This document shows positions 5,122 to 62,638 of a DNA stretch of 64,000 nt, piece after piece. The stretch comes from Gemmatimonadota bacterium (GTDB taxonomy: Bacteria > Gemmatimonadota > Gemmatimonadetes > Longimicrobiales > Gaopeijiaceae), in the NCBI GenBank assembly GCA_022826005.1, contig JAJDVT010000121.1, positions 62,001 through 126,000 of the forward strand. The letters are read 5' to 3'. The position numbers and the translations under genes are program-made. The notes below the pieces were generated by a model. The model was given only the letters and a program-made list of their open reading frames with translations, was not told the origin of the DNA and made no database searches. Each line of letters opens with the position of its first letter. Position 1 is the stretch's first letter.

Positions 5122-6339
5122 TCAGTCCTGCAGCAGGAGGAAGACGTCCTGCTGCGGCTCGTCGACCGTCACCTCGGGACCGCCGGGTCCCATGTGGACG
5201 TTGATCTCGGTGCGAATCCCCACGTCGTCGGGGATGTAGATCCCGGGCTCCACCGAGAAGCCGACGCCGGGCACCAGCACCCGGTCGTCGCGCGTCTCCA
5301 GGTTGTCGAGGTTGGGGCCGCGGCCGTGGATGTCCCGGTCGATCGAGTGGCCGGTGCGGTGGATGAACCACTCCCCGTATCCGGCGTCCGTGATGATGCC
5401 GCGGGCCACGTCGTCGCCCTCGAAGCCACGCAGAACCTCGCCGCGCGCGTGGCGTTCCTGGAGGGAGGCCACCACGCCGTCGCGGGCGGCCTTGACCGTC
5501 TCCCACAGTTCGGCGATCCGGGGCGGGAGCGCGCTGCCGAGGAAGCCCATCCAGGTCTGGTCGGCGGGGACGGAGTCTTCGTGGAGCGCGCCCCAGAGGT
5601 CGATGAGGAGGAGGTCGCCGGCGCGGATGGGGCGGCCGGCGGTGCCGGGATCGTAGTGGGGATCGGCGGCCGTGGGGCCGATCGCGACGATGCAGTCGGC
5701 GTGCACCGGGGCGCCGCGCCGGGCCAGTTCGGTGCGGATCCAGGTGGCGAGGGCGCCCTCCGTGATGGCGTCGCCGCGGGTGATGTGGTCGGCGGCGCGC
5801 GTGAAGGCGTCCCGGGCGAGGGTCTTGACCAACTCCGAGGCGCGGCCGTGTTCCCGGCGCTGGGTGGGGGTCCACACCGCGTAGAAGGTGGAGACGAGGT
5901 CGCCGGAGCTGTGGAGTTCGATCCCGGTCGCCTCGATGACGTCACGTATTCCGGCGGGTAGCAGGTCCAGGTAGGGGACATCGCACCGGGCCGAGGTCTC
6001 GGTGGCGACCCGCTTGCGGCCGGCGAGCAGGGTGCGCAGTCCTTCCTCCAAGCGCTGGCGGCTGGAGTAGCTCTCGCGGGGCCAGTCCAGGTGGCGCCAG
6101 GAGGAGTGCTCGATGGCGTGGATGAGGAGGCGGGGACGGCCGCTGGCCGGTACGAGCGCGAATCCCCGCCGGGTGGTCCACTCCAGACCGAGCAGCGAGC
6201 GCCCGATGGGGTTGCGGTCCTTGAAGTCGTAGAGCAGCCAGCCGTCCAGATCGCGTTCGCGGAGCGCCTCCTGAACTCTCGCCACGCCATCGGCGGTTGC
6301 CAGCAGCGCTCCCGAAGCGTCCTCCTGCACCCTCGTCAT
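5122..6339 (-). CDS. M24-family metallopeptidase (Xaa-Pro aminopeptidase-like)
   Basis: This 405-residue pita-bread-fold enzyme is likely a cytosolic dipeptidase or aminopeptidase acting on Xaa-Pro bonds. The C-terminal catalytic domain (about 165-400) shows the expected ligand order: Asp in LLLIDLWG, Asp in PADQTWMG, His in HRTGHSID, Glu in SVEPGIYI and Glu in RTEINVHM. The N-terminal creatinase-like domain (about 10-150) is present. Its start overlaps the ccmH-like stop, so the two genes are coupled. Creatinase or other M24 members share the fold, so the substrate is uncertain. Confidence 0.88.
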   Translation of the reverse strand: MTRVQEDASGALLATADGVARVQEALRERDLDGWLLYDFKDRNPIGRSLLGLEWTTRRGFALVPASGRPRLLIHAIEHSSWRHLDWPRESYSSRQRLEEGLRTLLAGRKRVATETSARCDVPYLDLLPAGIRDVIEATGIELHSSGDLVSTFYAVWTPTQRREHGRASELVKTLARDAFTRAADHITRGDAITEGALATWIRTELARRGAPVHADCIVAIGPTAADPHYDPGTAGRPIRAGDLLLIDLWGALHEDSVPADQTWMGFLGSALPPRIAELWETVKAARDGVVASLQERHARGEVLRGFEGDDVARGIITDAGYGEWFIHRTGHSIDRDIHGRGPNLDNLETRDDRVLVPGVGFSVEPGIYIPDDVGIRTEINVHMGPGGPEVTVDEPQQDVFLLLQD

Positions 6340-14596: not shown

Positions 14597-14635
14597 TGTA
14601 AAGAGAACCTTACAGAATGTAATGTTCTCCATACT
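14597..14635. promoter_or_regulatory. 39-bp double operator, copy A
   Basis: Half-sites TGTAA (14597), TTACA (14610), TGTAA (14618) and a degenerate ATACT (14631) lie at spacings 8, 3 and 8. The first three are perfect. The element ends 12 nt before the GTG start of the FGE-fold lipoprotein gene. It is one of five such elements in the window. Confidence 0.72.
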
Positions 14636-14647
14636 GTTTCGGGGCTC

Positions 14648-15538
14648 GTGACTGTGCTCTTCGTCGCTCCTGTGATGGCATTCGCGACATCCGGGTGCAC
14701 GGGAGCGTCGCCCCAGCCGAGGGTTGCGCCCGGGCATGAAGTGGGAGAGGTGTTCCGCGACTGCGCCACGTGCCCGGAGATGGTCGTGGTGCCCTCCGGC
14801 ACCGTCCTGCTGGGAACACCGAAGTCGCAGGTGCCGCCGGGAGTGGGGCGCGGTTCGGAAGCACAGCGGTGGGCTCCGATCGACGCCGCCTTCGCGGCGG
14901 GTGTGTACGAGGTGACTTTCGCGGAGTGGGACGCCTGTGTGGAGGCAGGCGGCTGCAGGGGCTATTCGCCGCGCGACGGGGGCTGGGGCCGCGGCACCCG
15001 GCCGGTGATCAATGTGAACTTCCGGGATGCCGTGGCGTATGCCCGGTGGCTGTCGGAAACAACCGGTCACGACTACCGGCTGCCGACCGAGGCGGAATGG
15101 GAACACGCGGCGAGGGCCGGATCACGGACCCTGCGCTTCTGGGGTGACGAGGAAGCGGAGCAATGCCGCTATGCGAACGGCTACGACGCGACCGGATTCG
15201 CCGCGAAACCACATCCGATTGCGAGACCAGCCGACTGCGAGGACGGTTACGCCTGGACGGCGCCGGTGGGCTCGTTCGCGCCGAATCCCTTCGGGCTGCA
15301 CGATGTCCTGGGCAATGTGAAGGAGTGGAACAACGACTGTTGGCGCCACCCGGCCAAACCGGCCAACGTCATCGACCTGCTGGGGTGGTTCTGCATAAAC
15401 GGCCGCGTGACGAGGGGGGGAGCCTGGGGTTCGATTCCGAGCCTGTTGCGATCAGCGTGGCGGGGCGCACCGAGTGGGGGCACGCGGAGCAGCGCGATCG
15501 GGTTTCGGGTCGTACGCACACTGGACCCGTCTTCCTGA
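14648..15538 (+). CDS. FGE/SUMF1-fold lipoprotein, probably non-catalytic
   Basis: The GTG start at 14648 gives a lipoprotein signal (hydrophobic VTVLFVAPVMAFATSG followed by Cys, about residue 18). Starting further upstream would place the 39-bp operator inside the coding region. The mature part is a formylglycine-generating-enzyme/SUMF1 fold: MVVVPSGTVLLG, YEVTFAEWDACV, RPVINVNFRDAVAYARWLS, YRLPTEAEWEHAAR, NPFGLHDVLGNVKEW, RGGAWG and IGFRVVR. The paired catalytic cysteines expected after the GG(S/A)W motif are absent (GSIPSLLRSAWRGA), so sulfatase maturation is unlikely. A carbohydrate-binding or structural envelope role fits better. Its stop overlaps the next ATG (TGATG). Confidence 0.82.
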   Translation: MTVLFVAPVMAFATSGCTGASPQPRVAPGHEVGEVFRDCATCPEMVVVPSGTVLLGTPKSQVPPGVGRGSEAQRWAPIDAAFAAGVYEVTFAEWDACVEAGGCRGYSPRDGGWGRGTRPVINVNFRDAVAYARWLSETTGHDYRLPTEAEWEHAARAGSRTLRFWGDEEAEQCRYANGYDATGFAAKPHPIARPADCEDGYAWTAPVGSFAPNPFGLHDVLGNVKEWNNDCWRHPAKPANVIDLLGWFCINGRVTRGGAWGSIPSLLRSAWRGAPSGGTRSSAIGFRVVRTLDPSS

Positions 15539-16884
15539 TGGGAAGGGACGCTCCCTTCGACCCGGTGCTCGTCGCCGCTGTGCTCGCCTCGGCGGTTTCC
15601 GCGGGGTGTGACCGCGCGTCTCCCGGCGCGGACGCCGGCTCGCCGCCCGGGTTCACCGTGCGGGACTCCGCCGGGATCGAGATCGTCGAGAACCACGCCC
15701 CGGAGTACCCGCCCGGGCAGTTCTGGACGCTCGACGCCGAGCCCGAGATCGTGCTGGGCGGGGGTGCAGGCGGCGGCGAGGCGCCTCCGGGTGGCGGGGC
15801 GGCCCAGGACTCGGCGCAGCTGATCTGGGAGGTCGTGGGGATCGCGCGGCTGGAAGACGGGAGGGTGGCCGTTCTCTCCCAGGGAAACCAACAGCTCTAC
15901 CTTTTCGAACCTTCAGGTGAGCTGTCCACGGTCATCGGGCGCCGCGGCGAGGGGCCCGGCGAATTCGACCGTCCTCAACTCCTTCAGTACCTGGCCCCGG
16001 ATACCCTGGTGGTGTGGGACTACTGGTTTGCCCCGGCAAGCTACTTCGACACCGGCGGCACGCTTCTGGAGGAACGGTCGATCGATCTCCTGAAGTTGAT
16101 GGCACGCGTCCCCGGGACCACTGCCGAATCGCAGGTGATCCCATTTGTGAACGGCTCGTTCGTGGTCCTCGGAGGGGAGGAGCCGACATCACCCCCGCCG
16201 GCAGGCACCTTTTACAGACCTCCGGTTGATCTCGCTCTGGTGGACAGCATGTACGCGGCGCACCCACTCGGGTCCTGGGCAGTGTGGCAGATCTGGATTC
16301 CGCGAGCCACTGCAAACGGGGATGACGCGTTTCTCATGATCTTTCTCGTCGACCTGCACATCGCGACCGGGGGTGATCCGCCTTCCATCTACATCGGCGA
16401 GGGCGACCGAAACGACATCTACCAGTTCTCGCAGGAGGGCAGCTTGTTGAGGATCATTCGCCGCGCGGCGGGTCCGGTGCCGGTATCGGACAGGGGCCAC
16501 GAGTCGTGGCTGGCGATGCTGGAGGCGTTGGACGGCGGGTTCTCGGAAGACGCATTCGGGATGAGCTGGGAGGAACTCACCCGCGGGATGCCCCGGAGGG
16601 AGATCTACCCGCCCGTGGCCGGTCTGGCTGTCGACGCGGACGGGCACCTGTGGGTCCGCGAATGGTCGGCCGCCGAACCGGGTATGCCCGACCAATGGAG
16701 CGTGTTCAGCCCGGACGGACGGTGGCTGGGAGTCGTTCGCGGCGTTCCGGATCTGTTCCTTTGCCACCAGCGCATAAGCCCCTGCTGGGTCGACCGTGAC
16801 CTCCTGCTTGCCGTCAGGCGGGACGAACTCGGGGTGGAGAGGGTGGAGGGCTACCGGATCCGCCGGGATGGGGAGGGGCCGTGA
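15538..16884 (+). CDS. Six-bladed beta-propeller lipoprotein, first copy
   Basis: The ATG at 15538 overlaps the FGE-fold gene's stop. A signal peptide ending in AVSAG-C (about residue 24) predicts lipid anchoring. The mature protein has the Gemmatimonadota-type opening FTVRDSAGIEIVENHAPEY, then a 6-bladed beta-propeller of about 400 residues with repeated DGRVAVLSQGNQQLYLFEPSG-like strands (each cut here below twenty residues). It ends ELGVERVEGYRIRR. This family has no assigned biochemical function. The propeller probably faces the periplasm or cell surface and binds a ligand or partner protein. It is close in sequence to the next gene, so a tandem duplication is likely. Confidence 0.82.
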   Translation: MGRDAPFDPVLVAAVLASAVSAGCDRASPGADAGSPPGFTVRDSAGIEIVENHAPEYPPGQFWTLDAEPEIVLGGGAGGGEAPPGGGAAQDSAQLIWEVVGIARLEDGRVAVLSQGNQQLYLFEPSGELSTVIGRRGEGPGEFDRPQLLQYLAPDTLVVWDYWFAPASYFDTGGTLLEERSIDLLKLMARVPGTTAESQVIPFVNGSFVVLGGEEPTSPPPAGTFYRPPVDLALVDSMYAAHPLGSWAVWQIWIPRATANGDDAFLMIFLVDLHIATGGDPPSIYIGEGDRNDIYQFSQEGSLLRIIRRAAGPVPVSDRGHESWLAMLEALDGGFSEDAFGMSWEELTRGMPRREIYPPVAGLAVDADGHLWVREWSAAEPGMPDQWSVFSPDGRWLGVVRGVPDLFLCHQRISPCWVDRDLLLAVRRDELGVERVEGYRIRRDGEGP

Positions 16885-16924
16885 GGGCGCGGTGGAGACC
16901 GCACGAGGCTCTCCCGCCGGGAAA

Positions 16925-16963
16925 TGTAAAGTTAACACGACATTATGTAATGTTGTCATGACA
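16925..16963. promoter_or_regulatory. 39-bp double operator, copy B
   Basis: Half-sites TGTAA (16925), CGACA (16938), TGTAA (16946) and TGACA (16959) occur with spacings 8, 3 and 8. The last half-site overlaps the ATG at 16958 of the second propeller gene. A bound protein would cover the translation start region, or the transcript may be leaderless. Confidence 0.75.
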
Positions 16964-18310
16964 CTGCGATCGCGCGAGAACACAGGGTTCGTGGTCTTGC
17001 CCGTCGTGCTGGCCCTGGCGGTGAGCGCGGGGTGCGACGGGCCGGTGCCGGGTAGGCACGGGACCGCGGGTGAGCGCGGCGTGACCGTGCGGGACTCGGC
17101 CGGGATCGAGATCGTGGAGAACCGTGCGCCCGAGCACCCCGCCGGATCATTCTGGACGATCGATGGCGAGCCCGAGATCGTACTTGGCGGGGGCCGGACG
17201 GGGGCGCCGAACGGGGAGACGGGCACCGCCGCCTCCGACTCCGCTCAGTTGATCTGGCAGGTGCGGGGTCTGGCGCGTCTGGAGGACGGCCGCATTGCGG
17301 TTCTGTCCACGGGGAACCACCAGCTCTTTCTCTTCGAGCCGTCAGGGGAGTTGTCGAGGGCGATCGGAGGGCGGGGCGAGGGGCCGGGCGAGTTCACGCG
17401 CCCGCAGCAGCTGCAGTACCTGCCGCCGGACACGCTGGTGGTGTGGGACTACTGGTTCGCTCCGACAAGCTACTTCGATACCGGTGGCAGGTTGCTGGGC
17501 GAGCGGGCGATGGACCTTCGGCGCATGATGGAAGCGGCCCCCGGAACGAACGCCGAATCGACGCAGTATCCGCTTCCCGACGGTTCGCTGGTCGTCGTGG
17601 CCGGCAATGAGTTTCCGTCCGAAGCTCCGACACGGGGCTTTCTCAGGGGGCCGCCGTCCGAGTTCATCAGGATAGACGACAGCTACTCCGCCAGCTCCCT
17701 CGGTTCGTGGGAGGGGATGGAGATCTGGGTGCCGCGGGACCAGAGCGACATGCCGGGCTTCCCCACCCTGATGGTCGAGTCCCACCTGGCGTCCGGGGGC
17801 GACCCGCCATCGATCTACATCAGCAACGGGGACACCGACGAGATCCACCAGTTCTCCCTCGGCGGCGACCTGATCCGGATCATTCGCCGCACGAACGGAC
17901 CGGTGACGGTCACGGAAGCGGCGCAGGAGGCGTGGCAGTCGGCCCTCGTCGCGTTCTGGAGCCGGCTCGGCGATCTGGAAGAGGAACTCGGAATGTCCGC
18001 GGACCGGTTCTTAGCCGGAATGCCGCTGAGGGACGGGTTCCCGCCGGTGGCCGGCCTGGTGGTGGATGCAGGGGGCTTCCTGTGGGTCCGGGAGTGGTCC
18101 GCGTCGGAGGCGGGGATGCCGGACCAGTGGAGCGTCTTTGGTCCGGAAGGACGCTGGCTGGGTGTGATTCCCGGGTTGCCGGATCTGATGCTCTGTCACC
18201 GGTTCCTGAGTCCCTGCTGGATCGACCGGGAGTTTCTGCTGGCCGTGCGCCGTGACGAGCTGGGGATTGAGAGGGTTGAGGGCTACCGGATCCGCAGGAG
18301 CGAGCCGTAG
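16958..18310 (+). CDS. Six-bladed beta-propeller lipoprotein, second copy
   Basis: The 450-residue product starts at ATG 16958 with a lipoprotein signal (VVLPVVLALAVSAG, then Cys at about 26). It repeats the layout of the preceding gene: VTVRDSAGIEIVENRAPEH, the propeller, and the same C-terminal run ending in ELGIERVEGYRIRRSEP. The two paralogues agree along nearly their whole length, apart from the signal peptide and some loops. Unlike the first copy, it has its own 39-bp operator. It lies 131 bp upstream of the first TonB-dependent receptor, suggesting an envelope uptake or surface-binding role shared with the receptors. Confidence 0.82.
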   Translation: MTLRSRENTGFVVLPVVLALAVSAGCDGPVPGRHGTAGERGVTVRDSAGIEIVENRAPEHPAGSFWTIDGEPEIVLGGGRTGAPNGETGTAASDSAQLIWQVRGLARLEDGRIAVLSTGNHQLFLFEPSGELSRAIGGRGEGPGEFTRPQQLQYLPPDTLVVWDYWFAPTSYFDTGGRLLGERAMDLRRMMEAAPGTNAESTQYPLPDGSLVVVAGNEFPSEAPTRGFLRGPPSEFIRIDDSYSASSLGSWEGMEIWVPRDQSDMPGFPTLMVESHLASGGDPPSIYISNGDTDEIHQFSLGGDLIRIIRRTNGPVTVTEAAQEAWQSALVAFWSRLGDLEEELGMSADRFLAGMPLRDGFPPVAGLVVDAGGFLWVREWSASEAGMPDQWSVFGPEGRWLGVIPGLPDLMLCHRFLSPCWIDREFLLAVRRDELGIERVEGYRIRRSEP

Positions 18311-18441: not shown

Positions 18442-21400
18442 ATGCAAGCCACCGCCCTCCGGGCGTTTCTGATCACCGCGACCGCCACAACCGCATTCCT
18501 GTGCGTCCTCGCGGTTCCCGCCTCGGTCCGGGCCCAGGGCGTCTCCAGCGCCGGCCTGCGCGGCCGCGTCCTGGACCCGGCGGGCTCCCCGGTTGAAGGA
18601 GCGCTGATCCGGCTGGAGCACACCGAGACCGGCGCGACCGCCACGGCAATCAGCACATCCGATGGCCGCTACGCCCTGCGCGGCCAGCGCCCCGGCGGCC
18701 CCTACACCGTCACCGTGACGCGCATCGGCTTCGGGGACCACACCCGCGAGGGCATCGAACTGCTGCTCGGCCGCTACGTCAACCTGGACGTCACGCTCCT
18801 CTCCGAGGCCGTCGAGATCGAGGGGATCGAGGTCCGGGCCCGGCAGGACATCGAGTTCGATCCCGGCCGGATCGGAATCTCCACGCTCGTCACGGCCGAG
18901 ATCATCGGGCAGCTGCCCACCGTGACGCGCAACTTCGTCGACTTCGCCGCGCTTTCGCCGCTCGCGCGCGTGTCCGAGGAGGGGGTCTCGGTGGCCGGTA
19001 CCAACTACCGCTTCAACACCCTCAACGTGGACGGCGCGCTCAACCAGGATGTCTTCGGGCTCTCGACCGACAACATCGCGGGAGGGAGGGCGGGCGGGCG
19101 CGTCATCCCGCTCGAAGCGGTCGAGCAGTTCCAGGTGCTCGTCGCTCCCTTTGACGTGCGCCAATCGGGGTTTACCGGCGGCGCCATGAACGCGGTGACC
19201 AGGTCGGGCACCAACGAGTTCGAGACCTCCGCCTTCGGGTTCTACCGCAACGAGGCGCTGGTCGGCCCGCTGGTGATCGGCGATGTCGCCACCGAACCCG
19301 AGCTGTCCACCGCGCACGGCGGGTTCACGGCGGGCGGCCCCATCCTCCGTGACCGCGCACACTTCTTCCTCGCCGGCGAGTGGGAGCGGATTCGCGAGCC
19401 GCCGAACGGGTTTCATGTGGGAGAGTCCGACGAGTTCCGGCTGGCGCTGGTCGCCGACTCGGTGGCGCGCATGCGGTCGCTTCTTACGGGCCTCGGAGCC
19501 GATCCGGGCACCGCGGCGTCGCACACGCTCGAGAACACGCTCGTCAACCTCTTCGCGCGGTTCGACTGGGAGATGGGGGACCGCCACGACGCCATGTTCC
19601 GCTACAGCTTCGCCTCGGCGGACGACGAGGCCGACCCGAACCGCCTCCCCGGCGACCTCTACGAGCTGTCGACGAGCGGCAGCACGATCCGTTCGCGCAG
19701 CCACTCGGCGGTCTTCCAGCTGTTTTCGTCGCTGCCTGGCGGGATTTCGAACGAGTTGGCGCTGAACTTCCAGCACCTCGACGACAGCGAGGCGGCGCGC
19801 ACCGCCCTGCCCCAGGTCGAGGTCACCCTCGACGGCACGATCGACGACCTGCCAGTCCGGCGCGACGTACGGTCGGGCGCCAGTTTTTTCTCCCAGGACA
19901 ACGGACTCCGGCAGCGCGTGATCCAGGTGGCCAACAACCTGAGCAACGATCTGGGGCGGCACTCGCTCCTGTTTGGCGCGTCCGCCACCTGGTTCGGATT
20001 CGACCGCCAGTTCCTTCCCGGCGCGTTCGGCAGCTACCAGTTCGAGAGCCTGGAGGAGCTGGAGCAGAACGATCCGGACCGCTACGAGATCACGATCCCG
20101 CTGACGGAGGACGGCTCGAATCCCACCTTCGAGGTTCAGGAAGTCTCCCTCTACATTCAGGACGAATTTGCGGCCAGCGAGCGCTTCACCCTGCGCGCCG
20201 GGGCCCGGATGGACCTCCCGACCTTCCGCGGGCGTCCGGCCGCCAACCCGGAACTGGAATCGGCGCTGGGGATCGACACCTCCCGGCTTCCCGCCGGGAA
20301 CTCAACGCTGTCGCTCAGGGCGGGACTCAACTGGCGCCCCCTCGACGGCACGCAGATCCGGGCCGGTTCCGGGGTGTTCACCGGCCGTCCGGCCTTCGCC
20401 TGGCTCGCGAACGCCTTCCAGAACAATGGAGTCGCCGCGCGGACCGTGGTGTGCAGGGGCGGCTCGGCACCCGCCCTGGACCCCACCGGCCCAACCCCTA
20501 CGGAATGCTCCGGCCCACCCCGGCCGCCGCAGTCGTCGACGGTCATCAACTACTTCGATCCCGATTTCGCCTTTCCGCAGGACTTGCGGACGATGCTCGC
20601 GCTGGACCAGCGGCTGCCCGGGGGTCTGGTCCTCTCGGGGAGTCTCATCTACAACAAGGCCCTCAAGCAGGTCTTCATCGAGAACATCAACCTCCTGGCG
20701 AACCGGATCGTGGGCGAGACGGAAGCCGGGTATTCGCTCGGCTTCGGCCTCGCGCACCGCCAGGTGTTCGGGAACCCCACCCAAGGACACTTCCGGGGCA
20801 ACGAGGTGCTCTGGGAGGGCGGGAGGCGGACCGAGGAGTTCGGTCCGGTGCTCAAGGTCACAAACAAGGGTGACAACTTCACCTACGCCGCCACCTTCGA
20901 ACTGAGGAAGGACTTCGGCGAGACGTTCGGGCTGCGGTTGGGCTACTCGCTGACCCGGTCGGCCGACCTGCAGAACCTCACTTCGATCGACATCACGTCG
21001 AACTTCGCCTCCACTCCCGTCAATGTGCACCCCAACCTGCCGGTGCGGCAGTCGTCGCGCTTCGACCGGCCGGAGAAGTGGGTGGCCAGTGCGCACGCCC
21101 GCATCCTGCCCCGGTTCGGGGGGACGGAGATCAGCCTCCTTTACGTTGGGCAGTCGGGTGTGCCGTACTCGTACGTGTACAAGGGCGACGTAAACGGGGA
21201 CGACTTCCCGGGCCCGAGGACCGCGAGCCTTCCCAACGACCTGATCTACATCACCGACGAGGTCACCGGCTTCCCCGGAGTCCCCGGACACCCGGAGGGC
21301 GAGATTCTGTGGTACAGCCTCTACGACCAGGAAGAGTGTCTCCAGAGGCAGACGATCCGGATCCTGGCTCGGAATACCTGTCGTACGCCCTGGTCGAACC

Positions 21401-21729
21401 AGATCGATCTCCGGGTTGCGCAGACGGTCGAGGCCCGCGGGTTGTCCGTGGACCTCTCCCTGGACCTGCTCAACGTACTCAACCTGCTGCACTCACGCTG
21501 GGGGATCGTGCATGTCGTGAATCCGGTGGTGCAGATCTTCGAGGTGAGGCGGTTCCCGGAGCCCGGTTCGGGGCTTGTCTCGATACCCAGGCTGCAATCC
21601 CGCTACATCGGCGGCCTGCAGCGCGACCGGGTCACCGGCGCGGTCGAGGCGGCACTGCCCTACGTGCCGGAGGTGCCGACATCGCAGTGGCGGACCCAGT
21701 TCGGTGTTCGATTGCGGATGGAAAGGTAG
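18442..21729 (+). CDS. TonB-dependent outer-membrane receptor, copy 1 (Oar/SusC-like)
   Basis: The 1095-residue protein is preceded by AAAGGAG. It has a signal peptide (about 1-31) and a carboxypeptidase-regulatory-like domain (about 35-120; LRGRVLDPAGSPVEGALIRL). A plug domain follows (about 130-260; LPTVTRNFVDFAALSPLARV, FNTLNVDGALNQD), then a long beta-barrel. A loop carries DVNGDDFPGPR (about 914-924), resembling a calcium site, and paired cysteines occur in two other loops. Such receptors import large substrates using TonB energy. No SusD partner is present; the two propeller lipoproteins just upstream may serve instead. The barrel ends in Arg rather than the usual aromatic residue. Confidence 0.88.
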   Translation: MQATALRAFLITATATTAFLCVLAVPASVRAQGVSSAGLRGRVLDPAGSPVEGALIRLEHTETGATATAISTSDGRYALRGQRPGGPYTVTVTRIGFGDHTREGIELLLGRYVNLDVTLLSEAVEIEGIEVRARQDIEFDPGRIGISTLVTAEIIGQLPTVTRNFVDFAALSPLARVSEEGVSVAGTNYRFNTLNVDGALNQDVFGLSTDNIAGGRAGGRVIPLEAVEQFQVLVAPFDVRQSGFTGGAMNAVTRSGTNEFETSAFGFYRNEALVGPLVIGDVATEPELSTAHGGFTAGGPILRDRAHFFLAGEWERIREPPNGFHVGESDEFRLALVADSVARMRSLLTGLGADPGTAASHTLENTLVNLFARFDWEMGDRHDAMFRYSFASADDEADPNRLPGDLYELSTSGSTIRSRSHSAVFQLFSSLPGGISNELALNFQHLDDSEAARTALPQVEVTLDGTIDDLPVRRDVRSGASFFSQDNGLRQRVIQVANNLSNDLGRHSLLFGASATWFGFDRQFLPGAFGSYQFESLEELEQNDPDRYEITIPLTEDGSNPTFEVQEVSLYIQDEFAASERFTLRAGARMDLPTFRGRPAANPELESALGIDTSRLPAGNSTLSLRAGLNWRPLDGTQIRAGSGVFTGRPAFAWLANAFQNNGVAARTVVCRGGSAPALDPTGPTPTECSGPPRPPQSSTVINYFDPDFAFPQDLRTMLALDQRLPGGLVLSGSLIYNKALKQVFIENINLLANRIVGETEAGYSLGFGLAHRQVFGNPTQGHFRGNEVLWEGGRRTEEFGPVLKVTNKGDNFTYAATFELRKDFGETFGLRLGYSLTRSADLQNLTSIDITSNFASTPVNVHPNLPVRQSSRFDRPEKWVASAHARILPRFGGTEISLLYVGQSGVPYSYVYKGDVNGDDFPGPRTASLPNDLIYITDEVTGFPGVPGHPEGEILWYSLYDQEECLQRQTIRILARNTCRTPWSNQIDLRVAQTVEARGLSVDLSLDLLNVLNLLHSRWGIVHVVNPVVQIFEVRRFPEPGSGLVSIPRLQSRYIGGLQRDRVTGAVEAALPYVPEVPTSQWRTQFGVRLRMER

Positions 21730-21779
21730 CGGGTCGATGACACCCGCCTGGATAACCCACCAAGCAACAAGGAGCGAGT

Positions 21780-24700
21780 ATGATTCCCATTTCACGTTCG
21801 AAAACCCCGCTGGACATCGTTTCAAGAAGACTGCGCGCCCTCGTGACCGCCCTGGCGGCGACCCTCGCAAGCACCGTCCCGATCGCCGCCCAGGGAGTCT
21901 CCACCGCCGGGTTGCGCGGACGCGTCCTCGACCGGGAGGGCGCCCCTGTCGAGGGCGCGCTGGTCACCCTGGAGCACACCGAAACCGGCGCGACCAACAC
22001 GGCCATCACCACGGCCGACGGGCGCTACACCCTGCGCAGTCTGCGCCCCGGCGGCCCCTACACCCTGACCATCACGCGCATCGGCTTCGGAGAGCAGACA
22101 CGCGAAGAACTCGAACTGCTCCTCGGCCGCTTCATCAACCTTGACGTCACGCTCCTCCCGGAGGCGGTAGAGATCGAGGGCATCCAGGTCGAGGCGCAGC
22201 GCGATGTCGAGTTCGACCCGGGGCGGATCGGCATCTCCACGCTGGTCACCGCCGAGATCATCCAGGAGCTCCCCACGGTGACGCGCAACTTCGTCGACTT
22301 CGCGGCTCTCTCCCCGCTCACGCGCGTCTCCGAGGAGGGGGTGTCGATCGCCGGCGCCAACTACCGCTTCAACACGCTCAACGTGGACGGCGCGCTCAAC
22401 CAGGACGTCTTCGGGCTTTCGACGGAGAACGTGGCCGGGGGGCGCGCGGGCGGACGCGTCATTCCGCTCGACGCGGTCGAGCAGTTCCAGGTCCTCGTCG
22501 CGCCCTTCGACGTGCGGCAATCGGGATTCACCGGCGGAGCGATGAACGCGGTGACCAGGTCGGGGACGAACGAGTTCGAGACCTCCGCCTTCGGCTTCTA
22601 CCGCAGCGACGCGCTCGTGGGCGAGCTGGTGATCGACGACGTCGCCACCCGGCCCGAGCTCTCCACCGCGCACGGAGGCTTCACGATGGGCGGGCCGATC
22701 CTCCGCGACCGCGCGCACTTCTTCCTGGCCGGCGAGTGGGAACGGATCCAGGAACCCCCGAACGGGTTCCATGTTGGCCAGGCCGACGAGTTCCGGCTGT
22801 CCCTCGTCCCCGATTCGGTCGCTCGCATGCAGTCCCTGCTCCAGGGTTTCGGCACCGACCCGGGCACCGCCGCGTCGCTCACCCTGGAGAACACGATCGC
22901 CAACCTCTTCGCTCGCTTCGACTGGGAGATGGGGGAACGCCACGACGCGATGCTGCGCTACAGCTTCGCCTCCGCGGACGACGATCCGGACCCGAACCGC
23001 CTGCCCGGCGACCTCTACGAGCTCTCCTCGAGCGGCAGCGACATCCGCTCGCGCAGCCACTCGGGCGTCTTCCAGCTCTTCTCCACCTTCTCCGGCGGAC
23101 TGTCCAACGAGTTTGCGGCCAACGTCCAGCACCTCGACGACACCCAGACGGCGAGGTCGGCGTTTCCGCAGGTGGAGGTCACGTTGCAGGGAGATGTCGG
23201 CGACTTCCTCGTGCGGCGCGATGTCCGCTCCGGGGCCGGCTACTTCTCGCAGGACAATGGTCTGAAGCAGCTCATCGTCCAGCTGGCGAACAACCTCAGC
23301 TACGATGTGGGGCGGCACTCGCTCCTGTTCGGCGCGTCGGGTACCTGGTTCGACTTCGACCGCCGGTACGTTCCAGGCGGACTCGGCAGCTACGACTTCG
23401 AGACCATGGGGCACCTCGCCCGGAACCGGCCGGACCGCTACGAGATCACCATCCCCCTGACAGGGGACGGCTCGAACCCGAGGTTCGGCGTGAGCGAGTA
23501 CTCGCTGTACGCGCAGGACGAATGGACGGCCGACGAGCGCTTCACCCTCCGGGGAGGAGTCCGCTTCGACATGCCGGTCTTCCATGGCCGGCCGTCCCGG
23601 AACGACGGACTGGACTCCGAGTTGGGGATCGACACCTCGGAGCTCCCCGGCCGGAACTTCACGGTCTCGCTTCGCGCGGGGTTCAACTGGCGGCCCTTCG
23701 AGGGCTCGCAGCTGCGGGCCGGCGCAGGGGTGTTCACGGGCCGTCCGGCCTATGCCTGGCTCGCCAACGCGTTCCAGAACAACGGTGAAGCGGTGCGCAC
23801 GCTGGTCTGCCGGGGCGACGAGGCGCCTGCCTTCGATCCAGGCCGACCCGCGCCCACGCTATGCGCCGGGGGGCCGGACGCCGGCGACTCGCGGCCGGTC
23901 ATCAACTACTTCGACCGGGATTTCCGCTTCCCGCAGGACCTGCGCACGATGATCGCACTGGACCAGCGGCTGCCGGGCGGGGTCGTGCTGTCCGGAAGCC
24001 TGATGTACAACCTCGTCCTGAATCAGATCTTCATTCAGAACGACAACATCATCGCCGAGGACAGCGAGGGCGGAGCGCTGGAGGGATTCACCGACGGCTT
24101 CGGCTTCGGCGTCCGCTCGGTCTTCGGGACTGCGACGGCGGGCGCCCTCGGACGGGGGCAGGAGCAGCTCTGGGAGGGCAGCCGGCGTTCGGACCGGTTC
24201 GGTCCGGTCCTGCGGATCACCAACCGTGACGACAACCTTACCTACGCCGCCACCCTCGAACTGCGGAAGGATTTCGGCGAGACGCTGGGGTTCAGGGCGG
24301 GCTATTCGGTCACCCGTTCCGCGGACATCCAGAACCTCACCTCCATCGACGTGACCTCGAACTACGCGTCAACGCCGGTGAACCTCCACCCCAACCGCCC
24401 CCTCCGCCAGCGCTCGCAGTTCGACCGGCCCCACAAGGTGGTCGCAAGCGCGCACGCCCGGATCCTGCCCCGCTTCGGGGGCACGGAGATCAGCCTCTTG
24501 TACGTGGGGCAGTCGGGCGTGCCGTACTCCTACGTGTACAAGGGAGATGTCAATGGAGACGGTTTTCCCGGACCGCGTGCGGCCAGCCTTTCGAACGACC
24601 TGCTCTACGTCCCGGATGTTCCCAGCCAGTTCGCGGGCGGCTTTGCCAGCCGCGCGATGTGGGAGAGTCTGTACCAGCTGGAGGAATGCCTTCAGGAACA

Positions 24701-25082
24701 CAGGAACCGGGTCCTGACGCGCAACACCTGCGATGCGCCGTGGACGAACCAGATCGACGTCCGGGTTGCGCAGACTGTCGAGGCCATGGGGCTGTCTGCC
24801 GAAATCAGGGTGGATCTGCTCAACGTCCTGAACCTGCTGGACCCGTCGCAGGGCATTGTGTACGTCGTCAACCCGATGGTTCAGGCGTTCGAGGTCCGGA
24901 GGTTCGCCATTCCCGGGGCGATTCCCCCGGATCCCTCCAACGTCTTGCTGGCCCACTACATCGGTGCGACGAAGAGGAGCCGCGAGACCGGCAGGCTGCG
25001 GGCGGCGCTGCCCTACGTGCCCGAGGTGCCGACCTCGCAGTGGCGGGCGCAGTTCGGCGTTCGGTTGCGGATGGCAAGGTAG
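21780..25082 (+). CDS. TonB-dependent outer-membrane receptor, copy 2
   Basis: This 1100-residue paralogue of copy 1 starts at ATG 21780 behind AAGGAGCGAGT. The signal peptide ends near ASTVPIAAQ. The CarboxypepD-like domain (LRGRVLDREGAPVEGALVTL), plug (ELPTVTRNFVDFAALSPL) and barrel follow the same order. Variation is concentrated in outer loops, while the plug and the DVNGDGFPGPRAAS loop are nearly unchanged. It is 50 nt downstream of copy 1, consistent with one transcript. It probably transports a related but different ligand. Confidence 0.88.
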   Translation: MIPISRSKTPLDIVSRRLRALVTALAATLASTVPIAAQGVSTAGLRGRVLDREGAPVEGALVTLEHTETGATNTAITTADGRYTLRSLRPGGPYTLTITRIGFGEQTREELELLLGRFINLDVTLLPEAVEIEGIQVEAQRDVEFDPGRIGISTLVTAEIIQELPTVTRNFVDFAALSPLTRVSEEGVSIAGANYRFNTLNVDGALNQDVFGLSTENVAGGRAGGRVIPLDAVEQFQVLVAPFDVRQSGFTGGAMNAVTRSGTNEFETSAFGFYRSDALVGELVIDDVATRPELSTAHGGFTMGGPILRDRAHFFLAGEWERIQEPPNGFHVGQADEFRLSLVPDSVARMQSLLQGFGTDPGTAASLTLENTIANLFARFDWEMGERHDAMLRYSFASADDDPDPNRLPGDLYELSSSGSDIRSRSHSGVFQLFSTFSGGLSNEFAANVQHLDDTQTARSAFPQVEVTLQGDVGDFLVRRDVRSGAGYFSQDNGLKQLIVQLANNLSYDVGRHSLLFGASGTWFDFDRRYVPGGLGSYDFETMGHLARNRPDRYEITIPLTGDGSNPRFGVSEYSLYAQDEWTADERFTLRGGVRFDMPVFHGRPSRNDGLDSELGIDTSELPGRNFTVSLRAGFNWRPFEGSQLRAGAGVFTGRPAYAWLANAFQNNGEAVRTLVCRGDEAPAFDPGRPAPTLCAGGPDAGDSRPVINYFDRDFRFPQDLRTMIALDQRLPGGVVLSGSLMYNLVLNQIFIQNDNIIAEDSEGGALEGFTDGFGFGVRSVFGTATAGALGRGQEQLWEGSRRSDRFGPVLRITNRDDNLTYAATLELRKDFGETLGFRAGYSVTRSADIQNLTSIDVTSNYASTPVNLHPNRPLRQRSQFDRPHKVVASAHARILPRFGGTEISLLYVGQSGVPYSYVYKGDVNGDGFPGPRAASLSNDLLYVPDVPSQFAGGFASRAMWESLYQLEECLQEHRNRVLTRNTCDAPWTNQIDVRVAQTVEAMGLSAEIRVDLLNVLNLLDPSQGIVYVVNPMVQAFEVRRFAIPGAIPPDPSNVLLAHYIGATKRSRETGRLRAALPYVPEVPTSQWRAQFGVRLRMAR

Positions 25083-25129
25083 CGGGCTGATGACACCCGT
25101 CCGGAGAACCCGCCAGCCAAGGAGCGAGT

Positions 25130-28100
25130 ATGATTCCCATTTTTCGTTTGAAAACCCTGTTGCACGTTACACCGAGGCTGAACGCCCTTGTGATCGGCCT
25201 TGCGGCGACCCTCGCAAGCACCGTCCCGATCTCCGCCCAGGGCATCTCCACCGCCGGGCTGCGCGGACGCGTCCTCGACCAGGAGGGCGCCCCGGTCGAG
25301 GGCGCGCTGGTCACCCTGGAGCACACCGAAACCGGGGCGACCAACACGGCCATCACCACGGCCGACGGGCGCTACACCCTGCGCAGCCTGCGCCCTGGCG
25401 GCCCCTACACCATGACCGTCACTCGCATCGGCTTCGCAGACCGGACGCGCGAGGACCTCGAACTGCTCCTCGGCCGCTTCATCAACCTTGACGTCACGCT
25501 CCTCCCGGAGGCGGTAGAGATCGAGGGAATCCAGATCGAGGCGCGGCGGGACATCGAGTTCGACCCCGGGCGGATCGGCATCTCCACCCTGGTGACTGCG
25601 GAGATCATTGAGGAACTCCCCACGCTGACCCGCAACTTCGTCGACTTCGCTGCGCTGTCGCCGCTCTCGCGCGTGTCGGAAGAGGGAGTCTCGGTCGCCG
25701 GCGCCAACTACCGCTTCAACACGCTCAACGTGGACGGGGCGCTCAACCAGGACGTCTTCGGGCTTTCGACGGATAACGTAGCCGGAGGCCGCGCGGGCGG
25801 ACGCGTCATCCCGCTTGACGCGGTGGAGCAGTTCCAGGTGCTTGTGGCTCCCTTCGACGTGCGTCAATCCGGCTTCACCGGCGGCGCGATGAACGCGGTG
25901 ACCAAGTCGGGGACCAACGAGTTCGAGACCTCCGCCTTCGGCTTCTACCGCAGCGATGCGCTGGTGGGCGAGCTGGTTATCGACGATGTCGCCACCCGGC
26001 CCGAACTTTCCACCGCGCACGGAGGCTTCACGATGGGTGGGCCGATTCGCCGGGACCGCGCCCACTTCTTCGTCGCCGGCGAGTGGGAACGGAACCGCGA
26101 ACCCCCGAACGGGTTCCATGTGGGCGAGGCCGACGAGTTCCGGCTCTCGCTCGTCGCCGATTCGGTCACGCGCATGCAGTCCCTGCTTCAGGACCTTGGG
26201 GCCGACCCCGGCACCGCCGGGTCGCTCACCCTGGAGAACACGATCGTCAACCTCTTTGCGCGCTTCGACTGGGAGATGGGCGAGCGCCACGACGCGATGC
26301 TGCGCTACAGCTTCGCCTCGGCGGACGACGACCCGGACCCGAACCGCCTCCCCGGCGACCTCTACGAGTTCTCCTCGAGCGGCAGCGACATCCGCTCGCG
26401 CAGCCACTCGGGCGTCTTCCAGCTCTTCTCCACCTTCTCCGGCGGACTGTCGAACGAGTTTGCCGCCAACATCCAGCACCTCGACGACTCCGAGACGGGG
26501 CGCTCGGCGTCGCCTCAGGTGGAGGTCACCCTCAAGGGAGACGTCGGCGACTTCCAGGTGCGGCGCGATGTCCGTTCGGGCGCGAGCTATTTCTCGCAGG
26601 ACAACGGGCTGAAGCAGCTCGTCGTCCAGCTGGCGAACAACCTGAGCTACGATGTGGGCCGCCATTCGCTCCTGTTCGGCGCATCCGGCACCTGGTTCGA
26701 CTTTGACCGCCGGCACGTTCCCGGCGAACTCGGCAGCTACACATTCCCGAGCTTGTGGCATCTGGCCCGGAACCGGCCCGACCGCTACGAGGTCACCATC
26801 CCGCTGACCGAGGACGGCTCGAATCCCAGGTTCGGGGTGAGCGAGTACTCGCTGTACGTGCAGGACGAATGGACGGCCGACGAGCGCCTGACCCTCCGGG
26901 GAGGGATCCGCTTCGACGTGCCGGTCTTCCATGGCCGGCCTTCGTGGAACCGGGGGTTGTACTCCCGGTTCGGGATCGACACCGAGGTGCTGCCCGGCAA
27001 CAACGCCAATGTTTCGCTGCGGGCCGGGCTGAACTGGCGGCCGCTCGCGGGCACGCAGCTGCGGACGGGCGCCGGCGTGTTCACGGGCCGGCCGGCCTAT
27101 GCGGGGCTCGCCAATGCCTTTCAGAACAACGGAGTGGCGGTGCGGACCCTGGTCTGCCGGGGGGTGGCGGCGCCAGCCTTCGATCCGGCGCAACCCCCGC
27201 CCACCCGGTGCGCATTCGGACTCGGCGAGTCGCTGCCGGTCGTCAACTACTTCGACCCGGACTTCCGGTTCCCGCAGGACCTGCGCACAATGGTCGCCCT
27301 TGACCAGCGGCTGCCGGGCGGAGTCGTGCTGTCCGGGAGCCTGATGTACAACCTCGTCCTCAACCAGATCTTCATCCAGAACGACAACCTCATCGCAGAG
27401 CCCAGCGTGGGCGGCGAGATACAGGGGTTCACCGAGGGCTTCGGCTTCTCCAACCGCGAGGTCTTCGGAACCGCGACCCAGGGCAGCGGCGGCGGGCAGG
27501 AACGGCTCTGGGAGGGGGGACGGCACTCGGACCGGTTCGGGCCGGTCCTGCGGATCACCAACCGTGACGACAACCTTACGTTCGCCGCCGCACTGGAGCT
27601 CAGGAAGGAGTTCGGCGAGGCGCTGGGGTTCCGTGCCGGCTATTCGATCACCCGCTCCGCGGACATCCAGAACCTCACCTCCATCGATGTGACTTCCAAT
27701 TACGCGTCCACGCCGGTGAATCACCACCCCAACCGGCCGCGCCGCCAGCGCTCCTACTTTGACCGCCCCCACAAGGTGGTCGCCAGCGCGCATGCCCTGC
27801 TTCCGCCCCGGTTCGGGGGAACCCGGATCAGCGTTCTGTACGTGGGGCAGTCGGGCGCGCCGTACTCCTATGTGTACCGGGGTGATGTGAACGGGGATGG
27901 CTTCCCGGGTCCGCGGGCGTCGAGTCTTTCGAACGACCTGATCAATGTCCCCGACGTTTCCGCACAATTCCCGGGGGGCCTTGCGAGCCGCACGATGTGG
28001 GAGGGTCTGTTCGGGCTGGAGGACTGTCTGCAGGACCAGAGGAACCGCATCCTGACTCGCAACACTTGCGCAACTCCGTGGTCGAATCAGGTCGATCTCC

Positions 28101-28435
28101 GCATCGCACAGTCCGTCACTGCCGGCGGCGTGTCCGCCGAAATCTCCCTGGATCTGCTCAACGTCCTGAACCTGCTAGACTCCTCGCGGGGGATCGTCTG
28201 GGTCGTAAACCCGGTGGTCCAGCTGTTCGAGGTCCAGCGGCAGCGCGTCGGCGAGGAAGACCCCCTTCTCCCCCAACCTCCCGACCCGGAGACCGAACTC
28301 GTCACCCACTACATCGGCGCCACGCAACGGGACCGCGCGACGGGCAGACTGCGGGCGGCGCTGCCGTATGTGCCCGAGGTGCCCACCTCGCAGTGGCGGG
28401 CCCAGTTCGGTGTGCGCTTGAGGACGGCGCGGTGA
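25130..28435 (+). CDS. TonB-dependent outer-membrane receptor, copy 3
   Basis: This 1101-residue paralogue is closest to copy 2. Even the intergenic leader (GATGACACCCGTCCGG..AAGGAGCGAGT) and the first codons (ATGATTCCCATTT) are shared with copy 2, so one is a recent duplicate of the other. Domain order is the same. It differs in loops near 690-740 and in a longer C-terminal insertion (QRVGEEDPLLPQPPDPETE). The gene ends 10 nt before the convergent HD-hydrolase stop, and no terminator hairpin is visible between them. Confidence 0.88.
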   Translation: MIPIFRLKTLLHVTPRLNALVIGLAATLASTVPISAQGISTAGLRGRVLDQEGAPVEGALVTLEHTETGATNTAITTADGRYTLRSLRPGGPYTMTVTRIGFADRTREDLELLLGRFINLDVTLLPEAVEIEGIQIEARRDIEFDPGRIGISTLVTAEIIEELPTLTRNFVDFAALSPLSRVSEEGVSVAGANYRFNTLNVDGALNQDVFGLSTDNVAGGRAGGRVIPLDAVEQFQVLVAPFDVRQSGFTGGAMNAVTKSGTNEFETSAFGFYRSDALVGELVIDDVATRPELSTAHGGFTMGGPIRRDRAHFFVAGEWERNREPPNGFHVGEADEFRLSLVADSVTRMQSLLQDLGADPGTAGSLTLENTIVNLFARFDWEMGERHDAMLRYSFASADDDPDPNRLPGDLYEFSSSGSDIRSRSHSGVFQLFSTFSGGLSNEFAANIQHLDDSETGRSASPQVEVTLKGDVGDFQVRRDVRSGASYFSQDNGLKQLVVQLANNLSYDVGRHSLLFGASGTWFDFDRRHVPGELGSYTFPSLWHLARNRPDRYEVTIPLTEDGSNPRFGVSEYSLYVQDEWTADERLTLRGGIRFDVPVFHGRPSWNRGLYSRFGIDTEVLPGNNANVSLRAGLNWRPLAGTQLRTGAGVFTGRPAYAGLANAFQNNGVAVRTLVCRGVAAPAFDPAQPPPTRCAFGLGESLPVVNYFDPDFRFPQDLRTMVALDQRLPGGVVLSGSLMYNLVLNQIFIQNDNLIAEPSVGGEIQGFTEGFGFSNREVFGTATQGSGGGQERLWEGGRHSDRFGPVLRITNRDDNLTFAAALELRKEFGEALGFRAGYSITRSADIQNLTSIDVTSNYASTPVNHHPNRPRRQRSYFDRPHKVVASAHALLPPRFGGTRISVLYVGQSGAPYSYVYRGDVNGDGFPGPRASSLSNDLINVPDVSAQFPGGLASRTMWEGLFGLEDCLQDQRNRILTRNTCATPWSNQVDLRIAQSVTAGGVSAEISLDLLNVLNLLDSSRGIVWVVNPVVQLFEVQRQRVGEEDPLLPQPPDPETELVTHYIGATQRDRATGRLRAALPYVPEVPTSQWRAQFGVRLRTAR

Positions 28436-29113: not shown

Positions 29114-29152
29114 TGTAATGTTTGCTTGACATCATGTAAGGCGAATTTGACA
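29114..29152. promoter_or_regulatory. 39-bp double operator, copy C
   Basis: TGTAA (29114), TGACA (29127), TGTAA (29135) and TGACA (29148) occur at spacings 8, 3 and 8. All four half-sites match the consensus. The element ends exactly at the base before the nth stop codon (29153-29155) and lies upstream of the HD-hydrolase gene. Confidence 0.78.
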
Positions 29153-45237: not shown

Positions 45238-45276
45238 AGTAAAGTAGAGTTTACATTCTGTCATGTCCGGGTTACA
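45238..45276. promoter_or_regulatory. 39-bp double operator, copy D
   Basis: AGTAA (45238), TTACA (45251), TGTCA (45259) and TTACA (45272) occur at spacings 8, 3 and 8. The element starts two bases after the pyrC stop and covers the gpmI start codon at 45263. A regulator bound here would act as a roadblock or cover the start of transcription. Confidence 0.72.
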
Positions 45277-52508: not shown

Positions 52509-52710
52509 GGTGCCTCCTCGATCAGCCTGCCCTCCCTACGGGGTCGGAGTGTGCCCCGCGGGCCGCCGGAGCTAAGATACTCCGTGGTCACGCACAGGTC
52601 ACGATCCCGGAGGCGAACGGAAGCGAGCAGCCCGTGGACAAGGTCCGCCCGGCATTCGAGCGGCGATGTGCTCGGGCGGATTCATCCACGGACTGCCGGA
52701 TGACGAAGGC

Positions 52711-61357: not shown

Positions 61358-61972
61358 ATGAGTGAATCGGATGCGAAGGCGAGGGACTCTCGGCTGCGCT
61401 GGATGCTGGCCATTGCGATTGGAAGCGTGGTCTTCTCCAATCTGGCGGACTCCGCCAGCCGGACGGTGAGCGAGATTGCAAGCCTCCCCCTATGGGCGGT
61501 CCTGCTCAACATAGTTCTCGGGGCCGTGTCGTTCGGCGGCATCATGGCCGGGATCGCGGCCATACGGATGTATCCCTGGGGGGACTTCGAGCGGGTCACG
61601 GGGCGCACGATCTCGGGGTTGGCCGCCGGCGCCGGGGGCGGAGCGGCGGGACTGGTCACGCTGGCTGCGCTGGCGGACGCCGGCGACCCTGCGGGTGCGG
61701 TGATCCCCGCCGTGGGTGTCGGGATCGCGGCGTGCGCGGGTATCGAGTGGTTCATGTTGCGCGGCCGGGAGGCCCGAGCCGGCGCAATCGCCCTGCTGGG
61801 GCTCGCCGCGCTGGCCGGGGCGGCACTCGGCACGGCGCTGGGGGAGCGAGCCTTGCCGGGCTTCGCCGCCAGTTCGTTGGGGGGCGCCCTCTTCGGTGCC
61901 GTCTACGCGGCTGTAACGAGCATTCCCCTGCGTGACGGCGGGGGACGACAGGGAACCCAGCCGGATTCCTGA
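61358..61972 (+). CDS. Small integral membrane protein, unknown function
   Basis: This 204-residue protein is not recognised. Four to five hydrophobic stretches are visible (about 14-32, 45-67, 84-105, 110-130, 138-190, the last Gly/Ala-rich and probably two helices). A short charged N-terminus and a polar C-terminal tail suggest an inner-membrane protein. AAAGGAG lies about 13 nt upstream of the ATG. It is 34 nt after the M28 gene in the same direction, so cotranscription is likely. Confidence 0.6.
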   Translation: MSESDAKARDSRLRWMLAIAIGSVVFSNLADSASRTVSEIASLPLWAVLLNIVLGAVSFGGIMAGIAAIRMYPWGDFERVTGRTISGLAAGAGGGAAGLVTLAALADAGDPAGAVIPAVGVGIAACAGIEWFMLRGREARAGAIALLGLAALAGAALGTALGERALPGFAASSLGGALFGAVYAAVTSIPLRDGGGRQGTQPDS

Positions 61973-62008
61973 CCGCTCGAATGCCGGGGGGATTGTGTCC
62001 GCGGGCTG

Positions 62009-62638
62009 CTAGGCCGATTCCCCCGTGTAGAACGCGGTCGTGCGCCGGGCCCTCGCTTGCGCTGTCTCGGGATCCGCCCCGCCCGCAACCGCCGCCTCCC
62101 CCCAGGCTTCGCTGCTGCCCGCAATGAACGCCTTGCCCTCCGCGGTCGCGAACACGGACTCATCCGGCATCGGCTCGCCCGGCTGCTCCACATGAATCGC
62201 CAGGCCGATGAGACCCATTTCCCAGCCGACACCGGTCGCGCCGGGCCCGAAACGGTCCCAGTGCCCGGAAAGTCGCTGTGTGTGCGTGAGGGACAGCCGT
62301 ACCCGGCCCGGCCCGCCCTTTGCAACCCGCACCTCCACCCAGCTGACGTCCCCGCCGAACTCCCATGTCAGCGCGAGCAGCGACGGCGGTTCGCAAGCCG
62401 TGATCACCCCGCCCGCGTTGCCCTCCAGCTGATAGCGGCCGCCGGGCTCCAGTTCGCCGCTGACCGGCAGGAACCAGCGCGCGATGCGCTCGCCGTTCGT
62501 GACGGCGTCCCACAGATCCTCCGCCCTGGTTGCGTAGCTGCGAGACAGCGTGACGGCGCGAACCGGATGTCCGTCGCGATCGAGTGCCGACACCACGCGG
62601 TTCACGGCGTCCAGGTCCGGAAACAGTCGCGCGTTCAT
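62009..62638 (-). CDS. SRPBCC (AHSA1/START-like) ligand-binding protein
   Basis: I choose ATG 62638, where AGGAG is 8 nt upstream; the ATG at 62644 has it only 2 nt away. The 209-residue protein has the helix-grip fold of Aha1/START-like proteins (VTLSRSYATRAEDLWDAVT, GERIARWFLPVSGELEPGG, LLALTWEFGG, LSLTHTQRLSGHWDRFGPG). These bind hydrophobic ligands or modulate partner proteins. Its start overlaps the upstream hydrolase stop (TGATG), so the two are translationally coupled. Specific function unknown. Confidence 0.87.
   Translation of the reverse strand: MNARLFPDLDAVNRVVSALDRDGHPVRAVTLSRSYATRAEDLWDAVTNGERIARWFLPVSGELEPGGRYQLEGNAGGVITACEPPSLLALTWEFGGDVSWVEVRVAKGGPGRVRLSLTHTQRLSGHWDRFGPGATGVGWEMGLIGLAIHVEQPGEPMPDESVFATAEGKAFIAGSSEAWGEAAVAGGADPETAQARARRTTAFYTGESA

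Follow-up and report, generated by a model that had tools for sequence, protein, structure and literature searches.

The window analysed here comprises 64,000 nt of a Palauibacter-type Gemmatimonadota MAG (G000), which we infer to belong to the genus Palauibacter, a group placed by the literature in sponges, corals and marine sediments. It carries five copies of a 39-bp site in which TGTMA-N8-TKACA occurs twice at a distance of 21 bp. An initial annotation of this DNA had described the five sites and their fixed spacing. Both are confirmed here at identical coordinates with invariant geometry and 0-2 mismatches (2, 1, 0, 1 and 1 in order), and 100 dinucleotide shuffles of the window contain no site. 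Furthermore, two single ends of a MITE-like element are present:

14597..14635, + strand: putative 39-bp double operator, solitary, 2 mismatches; ~105 bp before the predicted start of the gene for an FGE-sulfatase-domain lipoprotein
16925..16963, + strand: putative 39-bp double operator, solitary, 1 mismatch; extends over the start codon of the gene (16958-18310) for a DUF5128 beta-propeller lipoprotein
29114..29152, + strand: putative 39-bp double operator, solitary, 0 mismatches; separated by 69 bp from the start of the downstream HD hydrolase gene (28445-29044, minus strand)
45238..45276, + strand: putative 39-bp double operator, solitary, 1 mismatch; gpmI ATG (45263) within the site; position shared by four related species
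52626..52668, - strand: remnant, one end of the MITE-like element without operator; terminal inverted repeat GAGCAGCCCGTGGACAA
59561..59599, + strand: putative 39-bp double operator, solitary, 1 mismatch; followed after 26 bp by the gene for an M28 peptidase lipoprotein (59626-61323)
61955..62011, + strand: remnant, one end of the MITE-like element without operator; terminal inverted repeat

The neighbouring gene products (FGE-sulfatase-domain lipoprotein, DUF5128 beta-propeller, HD hydrolase, iPGM and M28 peptidase) match those guessed before. The start codon lies inside the site at 16925 and 45238, and the site at 29114..29152 abuts nth (29153-29806, minus strand) directly after that gene. 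The window also holds three tandem CarboxypepD_reg/outer-membrane beta-barrel (TonB-receptor-like) genes of ~1,100 aa each at 18442-28435, which have no site of their own; the first was scanned against Pfam and the other two were matched to the first by BLAST.

Each 18-bp dyad of the site follows the improved consensus TGTMAWGTNNACWTKACA. The positions between the half-sites had been thought to vary freely, which does not hold: position 7 is biased to G (76%), position 11 to A (77%) and position 12 to C (85%). Moreover, A is preferred at the two bases outside the 39 bp. Strong 18-bp dyads in 862 kb nearly all have a partner at exactly 21 bp. The sole strong single dyad without partner in these 862 kb is found at G000:C71:106335, and triple dyads with a 21-bp period occur at G000:C41:4484-4543 and in L080, L081, L113 and L160. 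In G000 a C:G variant at positions 15 and 25 of the 39-mer tends to affect one inner half-site, with both affected in 3 of 76 sites, hence the site may have an orientation. An RNA leader or hairpin was rejected, as the dyad positions are without compensatory pairing or covariation. The sites also differ in spacing and half-sites from those of NtcA, TnrA and GlnR (GTA-N8-TAC or N7 spacing), in agreement with the initial annotation. Its view of a protein-bound double dyad likewise stands, the predicted binding partner being very probably a transcription-factor-type HTH protein.

Scanning G000 with the gapped pattern, as had been proposed, yields 219 places at ≤3 mismatches compared to 0 for the reversed-pattern control; the sites are distributed genome-wide. 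The genomes compared are MAGs and may be incomplete. Within the genus, 22 of 23 have 29-265 copies (≤2 mismatches) and one (G009) has 0, while other genera have 0-2 sites per genome at the same threshold.

Site placement was evaluated for 121 sites from three genomes. The earlier reading would have been weakened by sites lying mostly inside genes; 93% are intergenic vs 15% expected. Convergent, divergent and co-directional regions contain 15, 21 and 64% of the sites as compared to 16, 26 and 58% of the available DNA. Convergent regions are thus at chance level (15.0% vs 15.8%), divergent regions are without enrichment, and 16 of 94 solitary intergenic sites lie between convergent genes. Solitary sites show a modest enrichment 0-50 bp upstream of starts as called by a simple gene finder (36% vs 21%). 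Site positions turn over between species and few are found at the same place elsewhere: of eight targets that could be mapped from other species, a single one also bears a site in G000. Sites kept in place are those of gpmI (in place in five species, shifted in three, absent elsewhere), G010/jk11_40 and the rplI region. Hence, of the proposed upstream regulatory sites the intergenic location is retained, whereas a simple promoter regulon is disfavoured by the convergent share and the few conserved positions.

The sites avoid each other at short range. Two pairs are closer than 2 kb where 11 are expected (0 of 2000 simulations as low) and six are closer than 3 kb where 17 are expected, given a null of at most one site per intergenic region. 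Regular spacing is strong under a naive null; the one-per-region null leaves only the short-distance part. The genes beside sites are of mixed function with a leaning towards the envelope (SecD, MreB, M50 and trypsin-like proteases, KDO transferase, heptosyltransferase, TonB receptors, transporters), and N-terminal signal or TM segments are over-represented (22 of 43 site genes, p 0.008); polA and gpmI are among the non-envelope neighbours. Ankyrin-repeat genes have a site in 6 of 10 cases vs 43 of 602, a link that is weak since five of the six are tandem paralogs. In G000:C3 ~75900-99900 (L019, L020) seven tandem ankyrin-repeat genes encode proteins of 1061-1144 aa, and five have an upstream site. 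In sponge symbionts, ankyrin-repeat proteins have been discussed as factors of host interaction.

The initial annotation had named no known regulator. Based on sequence comparison, the site very probably is an operator of CylR2-like Xre regulators, and its owner in Palauibacter very probably is a single-copy CylR2-like Xre/HTH domain fused to a PBP_like (PF12727) domain. In two Gemmatimonadota loci (L057 and L093) the HTH forms the N-terminus of a 381-384 aa protein with a PBP_like PF12727 C-terminal part, and the site lies 98-105 bp upstream of the gene. Their genomes have 2 and 1 sites, respectively, including the autoregulatory one. Within the genus an ortholog is found once in each of the 22 site-bearing genomes (in G005 the gene is split across two contigs) and is absent from G009, the genome with 0 sites. 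In all 22 the regulator gene is preceded by the 39-bp site with 1-2 mismatches. In G000 the gene is located on C26, minus strand, with the site 50 bp upstream of the longer start codon. The fusion proteins comprise 365-394 aa. Their C-terminus matches PF12727 with E 5e-48 and 163-167 bits (Pfam cut-off 27). A PDB profile search with the regulator alignment retrieves CylR2 (2xiu, E 6e-13; 1utx, E 3e-11), which outranks all other Xre repressors but one, the similarly sized PbsX-family regulator 9k3w. An AlphaFold model of the regulator, based on two sequences, is uninformative (pLDDT 35).

Two genomes from other genera of the same family (G033, G034) possess the regulator gene at 56% and 45% identity, with no site upstream of it at ≤5 mismatches. 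Since only one genus genome lacks the regulator, the co-occurrence depends on one negative and on shared ancestry, and this lone negative is thin evidence for a joint loss of regulator and sites. Half-site position 7 varies by species, with G at 82% in G000 as opposed to C at 54% in G011, along with changes around the recognition helix, a parallel that is at most suggestive. No paper on PF12727 regulators or on DUF2178 together with a regulator was found in a limited search of the open-access literature.

To a considerable extent the assignment is derived from unrelated genomes. A public genome collection scanned for the exact site returned at least 116 stretches. Those among the matches listed include Candidatus Palauibacter, other Gemmatimonadota MAGs and 50 loci outside Gemmatimonadota, the carriers of the latter comprising Firmicutes, Bacteroidota, Planctomycetota, Spirochaetes, Chloroflexi, Patescibacteria and one archaeon. 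In 35 of these 50 listed loci a CylR2-like Xre HTH is encoded 4 to ~1,350 bp downstream of the site, the gene starts falling at 4-51, ~390-550 (as second gene) or ~970-1350 bp. Often a small membrane protein bearing a DERD motif is encoded between site and HTH gene in the loci listed. As a control, the same HTH search among the Gemmatimonadota loci listed is positive only in L057 and L093, and no match to the membrane partner is found in these two 8-kb loci. The site upstream of the regulator in 22 of 22 genomes together with the HTH in 35 of 50 unrelated loci argues for an old autoregulatory operator.

How the site multiplied is partly visible in alignments between species. At syntenic gaps the intergenic region is often 195-251 bp shorter in species without the site, and with the site masked its flanks form families that are 85-96% identical over long stretches within a genome. 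The alignment reveals an element of ~249-252 bp with inverted ends TAGCAGYCCGTGGA / TCCACGGRCTGCTA and the operator near the middle. Requiring paired exact ends, a ~172-bp form is found in 11 genomes including G009 and G033, both without sites, and a ~247-bp form is confined to genus genomes with the regulator, of which 20 of 22 have it; as exact ends are required, copy numbers of the element are lower bounds. The two forms, when aligned, are distinguished by a 75-bp cassette that contains the operator and is flanked by a short AAGCG-type repeat. SB0662 and RHO1_56 carry the element in the rplI region, whereas RHO3_73 does not. TA is found at both ends of several copies, although the empty site has diverged. 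The element exhibits several features of a MITE, i.e. terminal inverted repeats, dispersed near-identical short copies and filled as well as empty sites between species. No transposase with matching ends (autonomous partner) was found in the sequences examined.

Element arms can be recognised beside 17 of the 76 sites sampled in G000, 31 of 44 (70%) in G011 and 9 of 31 in G021, as compared to 8 and 19 of 600 control windows for the two arms. The element hence does not explain most of the G000 sites, and the five window sites have no recognisable arms. Element-borne copies escaped the initial annotation because other genomes are needed to see them. In G021 (= G060) three identical sites are spaced 249 bp apart (C1:207279, 207528 and 207777), probably because the operator-bearing element is arranged in tandem.

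Taken together, we propose, with a probability of roughly 0.8, that a CylR2-like Xre/HTH regulator uses the site as its operator and that the site was multiplied in Palauibacter, partly via a MITE-like element. Two HTH dimers would occupy the two 18-bp dyads, two helical turns apart, and the regulator would bind its own promoter as well as the dispersed sites. Through the PBP_like domain, a small ligand (an oxyanion perhaps) may alter DNA binding, and occupied sites near starts may repress or tune the adjoining gene. The starting state would have been one autoregulatory site, as in the two genomes with a related regulator gene, followed by an expansion in Palauibacter to about 30-265 copies. 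One route, demonstrated by alignment, is the MITE-like element, with the 75-bp operator cassette in its 247-bp form and not in its 172-bp form; the direction of events would be that the element captured the operator and not the reverse. Insertion places the operator in intergenic DNA regardless of promoters. Solitary sites, including the five in the window, would have arisen de novo or be remnants of older elements. Regulatory wiring of the cell hence seems to be spread in part by a parasite-like sequence.

What the dispersed sites do is a separate question. In a conventional global regulon each site would be the promoter operator of the adjacent gene or genes, linking envelope, transport and carbon metabolism. 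The intergenic bias, the excess of solitary sites at 0-50 bp upstream of starts (36% vs 21%), the gpmI site in place in five species and the signal/TM genes beside sites (22/43, p 0.008), with targets such as mreB, secD, M50 and trypsin-like proteases, KDO transferase, heptosyltransferase and TonB receptors, are in line with this. Yet convergent regions are at chance level and divergent ones no more frequent, one of eight mappable targets is shared with G000 and some sites came by element insertion, so that such a regulon is conceivable but doubtful; the indifference to promoters fits badly with all sites being working regulatory operators. Slightly less credit is given to the sites being mostly inert, that is passengers and decayed element remnants of which only the autoregulatory and a few exapted ones function. 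Insertion is demonstrated by alignment, turnover is rapid and arms accompany 70% of the sampled G011 sites, but solitary sites hold the exact 39-bp geometry in flanks without trace of an element, the gpmI, G010/jk11_40 and rplI-region sites are in place between species, and unselected remnants should give many broken or single dyads, of which there are almost none.

The lack of promoter bias, the mutual avoidance (2 vs 11 pairs <2 kb; 6 vs 17 <3 kb) and the nearly constant presence of the full double site, single dyads occurring hardly ever, would also suit a role in chromosome organisation, in which the HTH-PBP_like protein bridges or marks spaced sites like nucleoid-associated or nucleoid-occlusion proteins and single-gene effects are incidental. 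We regard this as improbable, given the ~tenfold copy-number range within the genus, one species without protein and sites, the similar spacing expected from one site per operon, and ordinary repressors as close relatives of the HTH. It is equally improbable, as an extension of the multiplied-operator account, that element capture and hundreds of solitary copies turned the self-controlling protein into a ligand-gated genome-wide system acting on chromosome organisation or neighbourhoods instead of single promoters. Tandem ARG boxes or TyrR boxes, with homologs of ArgR or TyrR as binding proteins, resemble the site: ARG boxes are 18-bp palindromes in pairs 3 bp apart and thus have its 18+3+18 layout, and TyrR boxes have its dyad, TGTAAA-N6-TTTACA. 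The ArgR half-site TGAAT, however, is not reflected in the base frequencies of the site, and the co-occurring, site-carrying regulator is an Xre HTH of a type preceded by the operator in many phyla, which makes this reading barely tenable. TyrR boxes, ArgR boxes, PadR and BlaI were set aside once the Xre link emerged.

Cytolysin repressor 2 (CylR2) of Enterococcus faecalis acts as a repressor together with the membrane protein CylR1 on an operator (PMC5454873). The Palauibacter HTH domain is closest in sequence to CylR2 in the PDB, and genes of small CylR2-like Xre regulators follow the same 39-bp operator in many phyla, often behind a small membrane protein. However, CylR2 is a stand-alone protein of ~66 aa with a membrane partner, whereas the Palauibacter HTH is fused to PBP_like and lacks a partner match in L057 and L093; moreover, CylR2-like systems have one or a few sites, Palauibacter up to hundreds.

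For the element, the closest precedent is the 155-bp Correia element with its internal IHF site. Correia/NEMIS elements of Neisseria occur in forms of ~107 and 155 bp differing by a 50-bp internal IHF segment and have TA at their ends (PMC2229807). The Palauibacter element is likewise MITE-like, with TA at the ends of several copies and two sizes (172 and 247 bp) differing by an internal segment with a host-protein site, here the 75-bp operator segment. Unlike in Correia elements, this site would belong to a specific, apparently ligand-sensing regulator that is limited to part of the hosts and whose gene has the same site upstream of itself. RUP of pneumococcus and other IS630-type MITEs are also short and non-coding with inverted ends and TA termini, but no operator is reported for RUP (PMC2229807), while the Palauibacter element carries one, with no transposase of matching ends in the sequences examined. 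ARG box pairs and TyrR boxes differ by regulator family, and ArgR also by its half-sites.

The capture by an element of the operator of a dedicated, apparently ligand-sensing regulator with regulator-linked distribution appears to be new, as does the putative assignment of the 39-bp double operator to CylR2-like regulators; a limited search of the open-access literature found no earlier report of either. An orphan operator would thereby be assigned to a widespread but little-studied regulator type of many bacterial phyla and archaea, and such operators become searchable. Moreover, Palauibacter offers a clear natural bacterial case of regulatory-site expansion tied to a transposable element. 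Since the element occurs in forms that have or lack the cassette, the regulator is present in some genomes but not in others, and sites are found filled as well as empty, regulon growth and the supply of sites by mobile DNA become testable by comparative genomics.

The element seemingly is a target itself. In G011 two copies of a transposase gene, which we take to be IS110-like, start 129 bp downstream of the operator (L119 ~5340-5500 and L123 ~1450-1610). Both junctions are located at the same element position, after AAGCGGTCCAG, which suggests targeting of the element by the IS, much as REP sequences are targeted by known IS110 members.
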